Shown: piece by piece, positions 13,922-25,768 of the stretch
Position numbering within the stretch: the stretch's first letter is position 1
Layout of the letters: each line of letters begins with the position of its first letter
From: Allofournierella massiliensis
GTDB lineage: Bacteria; Bacillota; Clostridia; Oscillospirales; Ruminococcaceae
DNA length: 64,000 nt
Direction: 5' to 3'
Assembly (NCBI RefSeq): GCF_021531255.1
Contig: NZ_JAFBIO010000007.1
Coordinates: forward strand, 1 to 64,000
Position numbers and translations under genes: made by a program
The notes under the pieces: model-generated
What the model was told of the DNA's origin: nothing
Seen by the model: only the letters and a program-made list of their open reading frames with translations
Database searches by the model: none

Positions 13922-13997
13922 GGGGGTATAGCTCAGCTGGGAGAGCGCTTGAATGGCATTCAAGAGGTCAGCGGTTCGATCCCGCTTATCTCCACCA
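13922..13997 (+). tRNA. tRNA-Ala (anticodon GGC), copy 1
   Basis: A 76-base cloverleaf with encoded CCA. The acceptor GGGGGTA pairs with TATCTCC (with G-U pairs), the D arm is GCTC/GAGC, and the anticodon stem CTTGA/TCAAG encloses a loop ATGGCAT giving anticodon GGC. The T arm contains GGTTCGATCC. It is identical to the copy at 23259. Its 3' part is the attachment site of the first island: a 50-base repeat of it lies at 21383. Confidence 0.97.
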
Positions 13998-14002
13998 AAA
14001 AG
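13953..14002 (+). repeat. attL of island 1 (50-base direct repeat)
   Basis: From the anticodon loop of tRNA-Ala (ATGGCATTCAAG...) through CCA and AAAAG; identical to 21383-21432. Confidence 0.93.
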
Positions 14003-14034
14003 ACCTGAAATCAAACGATTTCAGGTCTTTTTTT
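13997..14034 (+). terminator. terminator after tRNA-Ala copy 1
   Basis: AAAAGACCTGAAATC / GATTTCAGGTCTTTT hairpin with a long T tract. It lies inside the island, so the element supplies this terminator. Confidence 0.85.
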
Positions 14035-14106
14035 GTCTGAAATCTGCCGTTTTTGTTCATTCTGTGTGATCTTTTCCAAGAGCTGCGGAACACTTGCACC
14101 CCGCGG

Positions 14107-14135
14107 AACTTTTAGTACCAGAATTAGTACCAGAA
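14107..14135 (+). promoter_or_regulatory. putative integrase arm-type site, left
   Basis: Tandem 12-base repeats AGTACCAGAATT AGTACCAGAA, preceded by AACTTTT. A near-identical tandem lies at 21240-21268 by the other end of the island, about the same distance from the core repeat. Such paired direct repeats are typical of tyrosine integrase arm sites; binding is inferred. Confidence 0.6.
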
Positions 14136-14167
14136 TGACCCTGTCACATAATGGACGCATTATCATG

Positions 14168-15331
14168 TTATCCAACATTGGGAAACTTAAGCACCTTGCA
14201 GGAAGGCTCGTCGGGACCGTCCGGGTCGCTGTGGCCTGTTGGAAAGGCTTTGCTGAATCGGTCAACGGCATCCATCCGAATGCTTTCCTGAACGTGTAAG
14301 TAGTGCTGCGTCATGCTCACATCGGCATGTCCCACGATGCTCTGGATAGTAGAGAGATCAACACCCAGCGCCTGCATCTGGATGACATAGGTATGTCTGC
14401 AGCTGTGCGGTGTAAGCAGCCGCACCTCAGGGATGGCCTCCAGTGCCTTACGGAACTGATCCCGGGAGTAGGTGGGGTTGCAGGGCTGATCTACCTTGCG
14501 GGCTTCCCAGATGTATTTCCTGCCCGTCTCTCGCAGCGCCACCGCGCAGTACCGCAGACTTTTGGGAACAGGGATGTTCCGGTAACTGTCGCGGGACTTG
14601 GGAACACCGATGGTGGCTGTTCCTTTCTGCATGTTGATGGCCTGTTCGATATGGATGACCGAGCCATCCGGTTCGATGTGTCGTGGTTCCAAGGCAAGCA
14701 GCTCCTGAGAACGCATTCCCGTTCCAAGCATCAGACGGATGCTGAGGCCGATGCGGTCTTCCGGCAGCCGTTCCATGAGGATGGAGACTTCCTCCGCAGT
14801 AAAGGCATCCTTCCGCTTCACCGGTTCGCGGTAGCGCATCTTTTCTGCGAAACGTACCGGATTTTTGCGGATGAGGTCATTGGCCTCGGCCTTGTTCATG
14901 ATCTGATACATCATGCCCCTGCACTGAGTCAGGCAGGAAATGGAGCGCCCTTCCCGACGAAGGTTTTTGAGCATGGTCTCCACATCGATAGGCTTGATAT
15001 CCTTGAGCTTCTTGCGGGGAAAGTTTGCCTTGAGGATGCGCAGCGTGTATTGGTAACTTTCCTGTGTGGTGGGCATGATGTTGTCCTTATGATTCTCGAA
15101 CCACATATCGGCCCAATCACTGAAATAATAGACCGTGTCAACATCCAAGCCCTCTGCCTTGGCGCTCTGGTACGCCTTGGCTTTTTCTTTGACTTCTTTC
15201 TGAGTCTTTGCGTAAAAACTTTTGTATTTGCGTCTTCCGTCACTTTGGAAGACTACCATCAATGTCAGCTCCCAAATGCCGTTGGGACGTTGGCGAAGAC
15301 TTCCTTCGCCGTGCGCCCTTTTCCTTGCCAT
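14168..15331 (-). CDS. tyrosine-type site-specific integrase of island 1
   Basis: A 387-residue phage/ICE-type integrase. An N-terminal arm-binding domain (HGEGSLRQRPNGIWELTLMV) and a SAM-like core-binding domain (near residues 55-150) precede a catalytic domain. The first Arg lies in TGMRSQELLAL, the His-x-x-Arg box in LTPHSCRHTY, then GHADVSMTQHYLH with the nucleophilic Tyr. The start at 15331 (MARKRAHGEGS) has AAAGGAG five bases upstream and is preferred to an ATG 21 bases earlier. It lies next to tRNA-Ala, the target it must cut, and probably drives integration and excision at the 50-base repeats. Confidence 0.95.
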   Translation of the reverse strand: MARKRAHGEGSLRQRPNGIWELTLMVVFQSDGRRKYKSFYAKTQKEVKEKAKAYQSAKAEGLDVDTVYYFSDWADMWFENHKDNIMPTTQESYQYTLRILKANFPRKKLKDIKPIDVETMLKNLRREGRSISCLTQCRGMMYQIMNKAEANDLIRKNPVRFAEKMRYREPVKRKDAFTAEEVSILMERLPEDRIGLSIRLMLGTGMRSQELLALEPRHIEPDGSVIHIEQAINMQKGTATIGVPKSRDSYRNIPVPKSLRYCAVALRETGRKYIWEARKVDQPCNPTYSRDQFRKALEAIPEVRLLTPHSCRHTYVIQMQALGVDLSTIQSIVGHADVSMTQHYLHVQESIRMDAVDRFSKAFPTGHSDPDGPDEPSCKVLKFPNVG

Positions 15332-15507
15332 GTTTACTCCTTTCTCTGGCACAGGCGTTTTGCAATTCTATTATAGATCACGCCGCCAGAATTTGAAATA
15401 CCCGGTTCCGCCGACCACGGAGAAATTTTTCCGTGATCAGCGGTTTTTTATTGTCCTTTAATGTGGACTGAGATTGTGCTATTGTATGTACATAAGGTGG
15501 TGATCGC

Positions 15508-15726
15508 ATGGACTATAAACTAAAGCGTGTTATGAGCAAGATTGAAAATGGAAATATTCAATCTGCACACATCTACGAACTGGTAGATACCTACTATCAA
15601 TGTGTGATTTATAAAATTGACGAATATGACGGTGATGAAGAACCGACAGATGCTTCTTATCCTGAAGAACTTCTTTATCAATTGCCCGAACGTCAAAGTG
15701 GGATTTTTAAGCTATGTCCATGCTGA
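15508..15726 (+). CDS. hypothetical protein, possible 5' remnant of the adjacent ATPase gene
   Basis: A 72-residue acidic open frame starting MDYKLKRVMSKIENGNIQSA with GGTGG upstream. It is in the same frame as the ATPase remnant that begins 13 bases after its stop. It could be an independent small gene or the start of an originally longer reading frame from which the middle was lost. No domain is recognised. Confidence 0.45.
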   Translation: MDYKLKRVMSKIENGNIQSAHIYELVDTYYQCVIYKIDEYDGDEEPTDASYPEELLYQLPERQSGIFKLCPC

Positions 15727-23987: not shown

Positions 23988-23993
23988 TATATA

Positions 23994-24817
23994 ATGGCTC
24001 TAATTGAATGCAAGTCCTGTGGAAAGCAAATTAGCGATAAAACAAAAATCTGCCCCAATTGCGGTGAGGTTCTGATTGCGATTCTATTTCCGAACCGTTA
24101 AAATGTCCAGAATGTGGATGTGAAATTCCTACTGATTCTGATTCGTGCCCAAATTGTGGATGCCCTATTGAAAAAAGCGAAGAAACAGTTTCACCTCAAA
24201 AAGTTGAAGTAACACGAATATCTCTCCATGTTGACAAAAAGAAAGCATCTAAAATAATTATTATTGCAATTGCGGCTATTGCGGTAATTGCAGCTATCTT
24301 CTATGGAGTGTCCGCAAATAAGGAGAAAAAAGCCCAAGAGGCTGCTGCACAAGCCCTGTCAAGTTATTCTGATAATTTTGACCTTTGTGTATCTACGATG
24401 TACCTTAGCGCTGTTCAAGCAGAAGAGGCTGGCGGTTTAATTCACGATGTTTGGTATAACACGATATATGAAGAGCGTGATACTAATACTGATAGATTCA
24501 CACGCCCCAAAGGATATTTCAACGATGATTTTAATGATTCGCTTTCAAACTTGTTTGGCGATAGTTCATTCCAGTCTGATATTTCAAACATAAAAACAAA
24601 TCAGGACTTGGTAGCATCTCTAATGAAGGATTTAAAAAATCCTCCTGACGAATATAAAGATGCATATGATGCCCTGAAAGACTTGTATGAAGTGTATACC
24701 GATCTAACTCAATGTGCTGTTGACCCATCTGGTAATTTGTCAAGTTACACTTCATCGTTTAATACGGCTGATTCTGATTTTGTCAAATATTACAAGGCGG
24801 TTAAGCTGTATCAGTAA
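23994..24817 (+). pseudogene. zinc-ribbon membrane protein, frameshifted
   Basis: The first frame, from ATG 23994, gives a CxxC...CxxC zinc ribbon (CKSCGKQ, then KICPNCGE) and stops at 24101. A second frame, beginning inside it near 24070, continues with another ribbon (LKCPECGCEIPTDSDSCPNC), a linker, one membrane segment (IIIIAIAAIAVIAAIFYGV) and a polar outer domain ending at 24817. One lost base near 24075-24082 would join them into a protein of about 273 residues. Zinc-ribbon/TM proteins of this plan are common in Firmicutes and mostly uncharacterised. A GTG at 24308 could only start the part after the membrane segment. A weak site lies before the ATG. Confidence 0.65.
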
Positions 24818-24824
24818 TACCGTT

Positions 24825-24852
24825 GGAGCGGGGCGCGTGTCCCGCTCCTTTT
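24825..24852 (+). terminator. terminator after zinc-ribbon gene
   Basis: GGAGCGGG / CCCGCTCC hairpin followed by TTTT. Confidence 0.8.
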
Positions 24853-25025
24853 CCTATCCGTTTCATTAGGGTATAGCCCCATGACAACGGAAATCCCCTT
24901 GCTTTTCTGTTTCACATATATTATATCATAATTTTTGAAATATTTCAAATTGCGAATATAATCCTATTGACATACTTTGGGGTTTGTGATAGAATAAAAG
25001 CAGATAAAGCAAGGGGGCTTTTGGA

Positions 25026-25586
25026 ATGCGGGTTTTCTATGTGCGCTGCTCCGCCATCGAGCAGAACGAAGCGCATCAGCTGAAAATGGCAGAAGAGCAG
25101 AACGCCGAAAAGTTATTTGTGGACAAGGCAAGCGGCAAGAACACAGACCGCACCGCCTTTAAGGAAATGATGGCTTTCGTCCGCGCGGGCGATACCGTAG
25201 TAGTCGAGAGCATTTCCAGAATTGCACGAAACACGCGGGACTTGCTTTCCATCGTTTCCGAACTGACCGAAAAGGGCGTGGAGTTCGTCAGTCTGAAAGA
25301 GAACATCGACACCACCACTCCGCAGGGGCGTTTCATGCTGACCGCGTTCGGCGCTCTGGCTGAATTGGAGCGGGAGAACATTTTGGAGCGGCAGCGCGAG
25401 GGAATTGAAATCGCCAAGAGAGAGGGAAAATATAAAGGCCGCAAGCCCATTGATTATGATGAAGCGCAGATGAAAGCCCTTTGCAAGAAGTGGCGGGCAG
25501 GTGAAATCACCGCCACGGCGGCTATGAAAGAGTTAGGCTTGAAGCCCAACACGTTCTATCGCAGGGTAAAAGAAATGGGGCTGTAA
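25026..25586 (+). CDS. serine recombinase (resolvase/invertase family)
   Basis: A 186-residue small serine recombinase. The catalytic region starts MRVFYVRCSAIEQN; the usual Tyr-x-R-V-S motif is here YVRCSAIEQN with Ser at residue 9. It continues with VDKASGKNTDRTAFKEM and the helix-E region FGALAELERENILERQREGI. A C-terminal HTH (ITATAAMKELGLKPNTFYRR) completes the resolvase layout. GGGGGC is the only upstream purine stretch. It is the sole recombinase in island 2. It may resolve or invert DNA, but the flanking tRNA repeats are not typical serine-recombinase sites. Confidence 0.93.
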   Translation: MRVFYVRCSAIEQNEAHQLKMAEEQNAEKLFVDKASGKNTDRTAFKEMMAFVRAGDTVVVESISRIARNTRDLLSIVSELTEKGVEFVSLKENIDTTTPQGRFMLTAFGALAELERENILERQREGIEIAKREGKYKGRKPIDYDEAQMKALCKKWRAGEITATAAMKELGLKPNTFYRRVKEMGL

Positions 25587-25741
25587 TCAGCCCCACAAAC
25601 ACGCAATCTATTCAAAAATTCAAGCGCACATGAAGCAGAAAAGTAAAGTGTGCGAAACGGGCAAATGAGCAAAAAGCCCTTGCATTTCAACGGTTTTTCC
25701 TTTTGGAGCACTTGCCCCTGACGGACGCTGCCGCGGCCGTC

Positions 25742-25768
25742 AATGGCATTCAAGAGGTCAGCGGTTCG
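25742..25768 (+). repeat. right 27-base tRNA-Ala remnant
   Basis: Same 27 bases as 23289-23315, then GTTCCACCA. It directly abuts the truncated M20 gene. Confidence 0.8.

Follow-up and report, generated by a model that had tools for sequence, protein, structure and literature searches.

Two islands at tRNA-Ala(GGC) genes of Allofournierella massiliensis probably arose by separate insertions

Two tRNA-Ala(GGC) genes and two partial copies

We analyzed a 64,000-nucleotide stretch of the Allofournierella massiliensis genome (contig NZ_JAFBIO010000007.1, positions 1 to 64,000), referred to here as the window, in which two transfer RNA (tRNA) genes for alanine are each followed by an interval that ends in a partial copy of the same gene. 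The intervals are referred to as islands 1 and 2, and the partial copies as remnants 1 and 2. Counts for the whole genome are based on the 2.53-Mb assembly (G000) of 92 contigs, in which the window is contig C77. The tRNA-derived features and the hairpins next to them are as follows.

13922-13997, plus strand: tRNA-Ala(GGC) no. 1, read as regenerated by island 1 (ARAGORN; Rfam tRNA, 61.4 bits)
13998-14035, plus strand: terminator-like hairpin at the island-borne left end; a similar sequence follows the tRNA part beside the integrase in five relatives (L075-L079)
21383-21427, plus strand: remnant 1, displaced tRNA-Ala 3' half (positions 32-76), right attachment site (attR); identity continues to 21432
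21432-21459, plus strand: terminator-like hairpin, presumably the original one of tRNA no. 1, from the time before island 1
23259-23334, plus strand: tRNA-Ala(GGC) no. 2 (ARAGORN)
23350-23393, plus strand: perfect 20-bp hairpin (inverted repeat I2)
25742-25768, plus strand: remnant 2, tRNA-Ala positions 31-57 only

The sequence-only reading of this DNA had reported identical tRNA-Ala genes at 13922 and 23259 with partial copies at 21383 and 25742, and this was confirmed: ARAGORN calls both genes, their sequences are identical, and the 26-nt core ATGGCATTCAAGAGGTCAGCGGTTCG shared by the genes and the remnants occurs four times in the window (shuffle mean, 0.00; n = 100). The same four places, all inside the window, are the only ones in the whole assembly at up to two mismatches. 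The descriptions of the remnants needed correction. There are indeed 50 identical bases at 21383, but only 45 of them belong to the tRNA, the other five being flank bases common to tRNA no. 1. The 27 bases at 25742 do correspond to tRNA positions 31-57, but the 3' end of the tRNA is absent, and a coding sequence begins directly after position 57.

The DNA upstream of tRNA no. 1 differs from that upstream of tRNA no. 2. Downstream, different DNA follows remnant 1 (from 21432) and tRNA no. 1. The DNA that follows tRNA no. 1 has its match on the element side, beside the integrase, in L075-L079. The proposal that the native terminator was kept after remnant 1 is thus plausible.

The island after tRNA no. 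1

Island 1 extends from 13953 to 21427 (∼7.4 kb). Its features and its chromosomal left flank are listed below, with helix-turn-helix abbreviated as HTH and open reading frame as ORF.

12390-13796, plus strand: M18 aminopeptidase, chromosomal left flank (NCBIfam PRK02256, 605 bits)
14083-14135, plus strand: left arm-type repeat (repeat D4), 85% identical to 21216-21268 and retained in relatives
14168-15352, minus strand: tyrosine integrase of 394 amino acids, pointing at tRNA no. 1 (Pfam PF00589, 1.2e-19; PHROG 1 integrase, 4.9e-63)
15739-16889, plus strand: AAA ATPase gene, broken 3' part (tblastn, 97-98% to L134 17205-18323)
16953-19384, plus strand: 2.43-kb IS66/M20 segment, absent from the element of the relative G062, whose alignment is continuous across it
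17077-17759, plus strand: IS66 tnpB and adjoining ORF, within the 2.43-kb segment (TnpB_IS66)
17856-19100, plus strand: complete M20 amidohydrolase, within the 2.43-kb segment (Peptidase_M20)
19894-20181, plus strand: Cro/C1-type regulator (HTH_26/HTH_3; 100% amino acid identity in G062)
20149-21150, minus strand: HTH_17-Fic fusion at the island's right end (PADLOC candidate defense system PDC-S04; HTH_17 under the Pfam cutoff)
21216-21268, plus strand: right arm-type repeat (repeat D4)

The integrase gene lies 170 nt from the regenerated tRNA no. 1 and has an intact reading frame. As expected of a tRNA island, the regenerated tRNA and the displaced fragment share one orientation, the island carries its integrase beside the regenerated gene, and the same ends recur in other genomes. 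The claim that an island follows this tRNA gene and ends in a tRNA remnant is therefore well founded, given the integrase, the arm repeats, the displaced 3' half and the relatives with the same ends. A pattern search of viral contigs for a circular form of island 1 gave no match to the integrase.

We scanned genome contigs for relatives of the integrase and obtained eight loci, seven of which adjoin tRNA-Ala(GGC) or its 3' part. The integrase lies next to a full tRNA-Ala(GGC) in four of them (L075, L078, L080 and L081) and next to only the 3' part, positions 32-76, in three (L076, L077 and L079, the part in L079 containing a run of N); the eighth, L082, encodes an integrase with 52% identity that adjoins tRNA-Pro(GGG). 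In L076, L077 and L079 the tRNA part begins exactly at position 32 with the 5' half absent, as might be seen with neighboring elements or at non-tRNA sites. We considered L076 as an attP form and rejected this because a full tRNA 3' half lies at the other end of the same contig; a neighboring element that was cut at the same point is the likelier explanation, although not proven.

Searching for right ends by the core, in seven of the eight relatives' genomes plus G049, showed that the 50 nt before the right-hand core agree with the window at 50 of 50 positions in G062, 45 in G063 and 43 in G064, while this stretch is poorly conserved in G067 (24/50). The right-hand remnant in G063 (L095, on G063:C29) consists of 35 nt of tRNA followed by unrelated DNA and in this resembles remnant 2. 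The closest relative is G062, a Clostridia metagenome-assembled genome with both ends on one contig and cores 16.06 kb apart. Its DNA identity to island 1 is 93.6% over 13953-15451, 94.3% over 15769-16952 and 97.3% over 19385-21433. Between the aligned stretches the G062 element carries NikA/MobC-type, DndF, DndG, DndD/PbeC, DndE, Fic and AAA genes, and the window aligns to none of this intervening cargo except the 3' part of the AAA gene. The G062 homologue of that broken gene is an open frame of 590 amino acids with AAA_14 and PDC-S01 matches. The NikA/MobC stretch is thus missing from the window alignment, although no relaxase-profile search of the window was made; in the G062 element, no relaxase was recognized by Pfam among ten scanned ORFs, a subset of its ORFs. 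One further protein is presumably HamA, although PADLOC gave it only a weak, unrelated match; a neighboring protein matched HamB. No long terminal repeats were seen at the IS66/M20 segment of the window.

The HTH-Fic protein was found at all four of the relatives' right ends examined. The usual Fic motif contains a catalytic His; in the window and these four relatives (5/5) its position is taken by Arg, within the motif IRP(Y/F)EDCNGR. The nearest solved structure is 4x2c. With its excisionase-type HTH at the attR end, the protein is possibly a directionality factor or a defense gene.

The integrases of G061 and G062 are each 96.7% identical to that of the window. By comparison, the M18 aminopeptidase of G061 is only 45% identical to the window's and those of four further genomes 52-66%; G063 gave no M18 match, and G062 only a 28% match that is probably a paralogue. 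Since the integrase of G061 is so close and its M18 aminopeptidase so distant, the island 1 family appears to have moved horizontally, and recently, between different Clostridia hosts. Island 1 is a shrunken member of a family of mobilizable tRNA-Ala defense islands.

The island after tRNA no. 2

Island 2 carries fewer genes and runs into a gene fragment.

23584-23987, plus strand: orf1 (70 amino acids) and HTH protein (63 amino acids)
23994-24817, plus strand: zinc-ribbon cargo gene, apparently frameshifted (ORF 24308-24817, no Pfam match)
25026-25586, plus strand: Res, small serine recombinase of the resolvase/invertase type, 186 amino acids (Pfam Resolvase, 3.8e-42; PHROG 125 DNA invertase, 2.2e-61)
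25769-26440, plus strand: M20-type amidohydrolase, 3' half, frameshifted (83% to L050 729-1402)

Among the ORFs of 23335-25741 no tyrosine or large serine integrase was found, the 186-amino-acid resolvase being the sole recombinase. Remnant 2 stops at position 57, short of the tRNA 3' end that the displaced fragment of a tRNA island would include. The reading of this second interval as an island consequently holds in part: it has its own tRNA gene, a remnant and a module with relatives elsewhere, but no integrase was found, the remnant is cut, and the left boundary is not fixed. The idea that island 2 is a copy of island 1 was rejected, as the two have no recognized genes in common and their ends differ.

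The relatives of Res lie at comparable places. On the viral contig L083, a Res with 88% identity is followed ∼200 nt downstream by tRNA-Ala positions 27-76, at the place corresponding to remnant 2, and is preceded by orf1-like and HTH genes in the same order as in the window. In G638, whose Res (81% identical) is the best after the window itself among the 34 of 396 family genomes with a match at E ≤ 1e-50, the order orf1-HTH-cargo-Res ends at a 46-nt 3' remnant of tRNA-Pro (100%) that starts at position 32, and at its opposite end the element has a tyrosine integrase beside a full tRNA-Pro(CGG). The HTH proteins of the window, L083 and G638 share ∼40% identity over 38-40 amino acids; a likeness of orf1 was seen for L083 only and is weak (32% over 31 amino acids). 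Given the contexts in L083 (tRNA-Ala) and G638 (tRNA-Pro, tyrosine integrase), we conclude that tRNA-targeted elements that differ in their integrases end in the orf1-HTH-cargo-Res module, and that no such integrase is left here. Several Res relatives lie on viral contigs of 4-6 kb, and island 2 was considered as a filamentous-phage remnant; this was dropped because the genes of L083 include one for a large serine recombinase and one that is lipoprotein-like.

Island 2 might also have been inserted by its own Res, with no other integrase ever present, as is reported for phage phiRSM1 at tRNA-Ser. A tRNA remnant does adjoin Res in L083 and G638 as in the window, and PMC3218068 cites phiRSM1 as serine-recombinase integration at tRNA-Ser, with “resolvase-like” in the cited title. 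However, the element that holds the module in G638 has a tyrosine integrase next to an intact tRNA, and ARAGORN found a tRNA within 500 nt in none of 30 Res loci, a test that 3' fragments such as those of G638 and L083 escape. We regard insertion by Res as unlikely.

The earlier reading had missed that remnant 2 lies in a broken amidohydrolase gene. The counterpart in G001 (L050 in this single available congener) is a frame that is open for 466 amino acids up to the contig edge; presumably it is AbgB, although the tools support Peptidase_M20 only. The alignment to the window (82-83%) begins at 25766, three bases before the end of remnant 2, and the 3' half in the window has a one-base frameshift further along. 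The idea that the amidohydrolase gene had offered a secondary integration site, now seen as remnant 2, was rejected, since no tRNA-like core was seen there in G001 by eye. The fusion of remnant 2 to the amidohydrolase is probably a deletion scar.

A dyad between the islands and a clade of large serine recombinases

Three features separate the two islands.

21688-22251, plus strand: hydrophobic ORF of a family without Pfam match
22323-22376: 18-18-18 inverted repeat (dyad), attP-like, of the tRNA-Ala large serine recombinase type
22466-23107, plus strand: UppS-type prenyltransferase (TIGR00055)

The dyad is uncut, and by eye its arms resemble the attL and attR arms of a clade of large serine recombinases described below, with AA rather than AG in the center. 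Its 17-mer CATCGGTTACAYACCCC is present in 3 of 394 genomes of the order. Besides this one, these are G049 and G181, where a tRNA-Ala remnant lies no more than 10 nt away from it. The dyad shape alone is not unique, as 18-18-18 repeats with at least 15 pairs occur at two places in the window. Rfam gave no family at the gathering threshold. Four viral contigs with CATCGGTTACAYACCCC were counted as chance, because none has a tRNA-Ala match; in two of them the ORFs were inspected and no recombinase was recognized by eye. The UppS-type gene, a second gene of this type, is patchy in the order (10 of 394 genomes, this one included). At ten further UppS loci (L181-L190), the gene closely follows a tRNA in three cases (Pro, Leu and Thr) and an apparent tRNA 3' end, judged by eye, in two.

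A search with the large serine recombinase of L083 gave at least 33 matches at E ≤ 1e-100 in at least 26 of 394 genomes, both being lower bounds with at most three candidates scored per genome. At 22 of the 30 loci examined, the recombinase 3' end is no more than 500 nt away from a tRNA-Ala (GGC or CGC) that is either full or a piece of at least 45 nt, the 30 Res loci without any tRNA at this distance serving as a control. Among the other eight, L280 has a tRNA-Met within 500 nt, L262 a tRNA-Ala ∼1 kb away and L271 a 26-nt tRNA-Ala-like stretch. Where a full tRNA-Ala faces the recombinase (n = 15), at least one 22-nt 5' fragment of the tRNA, scored at up to four mismatches over 22 nt, lies upstream in 12 loci and none in 3. 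These fragments mostly end in TGGGAG, after which the arm follows, and in the 12 elements 63-145 nt lie between the start of the nearest fragment and that of the replacement tRNA. In some loci the sequence of the fragment is not that of the full tRNA, and this marks the full tRNA as imported; presumably the replacement is transcribed from the host promoter.

Stacked 5' fragments, some of them poor matches, occur in L261, L264, L265, L273, L282 and L284; among the four counted in L282 is a second full tRNA. A later element could enter the tRNA brought by its predecessor, so that the 5' fragments would pile up like rings. Across the loci of this clade (L256-L292), the stacks suggest serial insertions; on G215:C7 (L286-L289), three recombinases of the clade lie within ∼72 kb, with three stacked 5' fragments and at least two attR arms.

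On balance, we favor a scheme in which these large serine recombinases split tRNA-Ala(GGC/CGC) after nucleotide 22 (TGGGAG|) and bring a complete replacement tRNA, tyrosine integrases cut the same tRNA in the anticodon loop, and the dyad in the window is an uncut attP fossil. In the window, only the two full genes carry the sequence of the 22-nt 5' fragment (up to four mismatches); therefore, islands 1 and 2 do not belong to the serine clade, and the dyad is the only link to it. In the literature, of which mainly the non-subscription part was covered, we found no tRNA-Ala serine-integrase clade with a carried tRNA, which is weak evidence of absence.

The sequence-only reading had described the locus as a tRNA-Ala integration hot spot, and the seven of eight integrase relatives at tRNA-Ala(GGC) support this, as do 55 viral contigs that contain the exact 25-nt 3' end of this tRNA-Ala. 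Seven of these have the whole exact gene and five more have it at 74 of 76 positions, the rest having mainly the 3' part. Within 3 kb of the tRNA part, 31 of the 55 encode a tyrosine integrase (defined as similarity to any of three queries, one of them drawn from these contigs), 1 encodes a large serine recombinase (L083), and in 23 neither was found.

Two insertions or one duplication

Taken together, two independent mobile elements at two separate tRNA-Ala(GGC) genes, the second truncated by deletion, are the probable origin of this arrangement. The attP of island 1 would have carried tRNA positions 32-76, with the crossover probably at the anticodon loop. Integration would thereby have rebuilt tRNA no. 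1 from the host 5' half and a 3' half brought in by the element together with a terminator, and would have displaced the original 3' half of the host gene, with its terminator, to 21383. Excision may still work. The mobilization (Mob) and Dnd/Fic defense genes of its relatives are missing from island 1, which has the IS66/M20 segment. Island 2 would be the right-hand part, the orf1-HTH-cargo-resolvase module, of a second tRNA-targeted element that began at tRNA no. 2 and lacks its main integrase. A deletion after insertion would have removed the DNA from tRNA position 57 in the attR remnant to the middle of the amidohydrolase gene.

Several observations weigh against this reading. The M18 aminopeptidase flanking island 1 has a match in 39 of 41 genomes, this one included (38 others), and tRNA-Ala lies within 1.5 kb of it in 3 of 20 loci from this search: the window, G020 and G014. 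With only 2 of 19 other loci, the site of tRNA no. 1 is shared but not general, and of eight loci from a later search, four were examined and none has tRNA-Ala near M18. In G020 and G014, which belong to other genera, no match to the integrase or Res was found in the 19.5 kb and 6 kb examined. No true empty site was found among the genomes compared, and within the genus these comprise only G001, an assembly that is 84% complete. There, other genes follow M18 with no tRNA-Ala for 1.5 kb, and tRNA-Ala(GGC) itself gave no strong match (best E, 2.6e-4). In favor of the reading, window positions 13798-25765 found in G001, with 40 of 58 candidates scored, only M20 paralogues and, in the tRNA region, a 111-nt match of 71%. 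For island 2, the left edge is undefined, and a CTCGAGAGAGT-hairpin similar to the one downstream of tRNA no. 2 follows a tRNA-Ala in G053, near which no match to the integrase or Res was found, as if there were no insertion exactly at this point. Between Res and the remnant, L083 shows little similarity to the window, with two short matches in collinear order and a best E of 0.02. At the deletion joint (25768/25769) no microhomology was seen by reading the sequence. The 5' half of the amidohydrolase had no match in G000, which speaks for the deletion, but this search was made without a positive control.

The earlier reading had left open whether two separate insertions or a duplication with the tRNA as homology produced the arrangement. 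In a duplication, tRNA no. 1 would have undergone recombination with an element circle that had its own complete tRNA-Ala, so that dyad and UppS came to lie between two full tRNAs, and island 1 would have come later. The identity of the two tRNAs, the uncut dyad, the complete tRNA-Ala that large serine recombinase elements do carry and the G053-like DNA downstream of tRNA no. 2 would all suit such an event. However, the recombinase of L083 has no match in the window, where no large serine recombinase was found near the dyad or elsewhere, and the 3 of 12 candidates scored in G000 gave no match at E ≤ 1e-100. Moreover, the distance from the dyad to the start of tRNA no. 2 is 883 nt, with UppS in between, compared with the 63-145 nt in the 12 elements, and this tRNA has a promoter-like upstream region of its own. 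Two insertions fit better because the islands share no recognized genes, the DNA upstream of the two tRNAs differs and each island has its own, separate relatives; we consider a duplication improbable. An old, fixed chromosomal structure, with tRNA fragments from ancient events and neither interval mobile now, would suit the broken ORFs and missing Mob genes of island 1 and the missing integrase of island 2, but it is hard to reconcile with an intact integrase frame and with parts of island 1 at 93-97% DNA identity elsewhere, where M18 is far more different or not found, and we give it little credence.

Comparison with known systems

The reading as two insertions delimits a family of mobilizable defense islands that appears to move among gut Clostridia, and it gives an example of how an island of this sort may shrink. 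One tRNA gene family seems to be contested by integrases with different cut positions and different ways of preserving the tRNA. With a clade that would bring a whole spare tRNA, the survival of a split essential tRNA becomes directly testable, and the clade could give integration tools for gut bacteria that resist engineering.

The putative serine clade resembles the mycobacterial actinomycete integrative and conjugative elements (AICEs; tRNA-Leu) and phage phiRSM1 (tRNA-Ser) in combining a serine recombinase with a tRNA target (PMC3218068). It differs from them in its target, tRNA-Ala GGC/CGC, in the cut after nucleotide 22 and in the 5' fragments upstream of the imported tRNA; the accessible part of PMC3218068 describes no tRNA replacement of this kind. 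Serine-recombinase integration at tRNA genes is called rare in that part, and in the accessible part of PMC4383910 serine recombinases at tRNA genes are given as not known.

The 16-kb relative in G062 is like the integrative and mobilizable elements in what is accessible of PMC5704250, with its NikA/MobC-type genes and tRNA site, whereas the window copy is without the NikA/MobC stretch. By PADLOC, the same relative matches DndF, DndG, DndD/PbeC and DndE of Dnd phosphorothioation, in a region where the window copy does not align. Compared with the tRNA islands with tyrosine integrases (the Islander class), as far as the accessible part of PMC4383910 describes them, island 2 lacks an integrase and a full fragment. 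Island 1 has their regenerated tRNA, displaced 3' fragment, integrase and anticodon-type crossover place and differs in nothing essential; it is a shrunken copy that belongs to this known kind.

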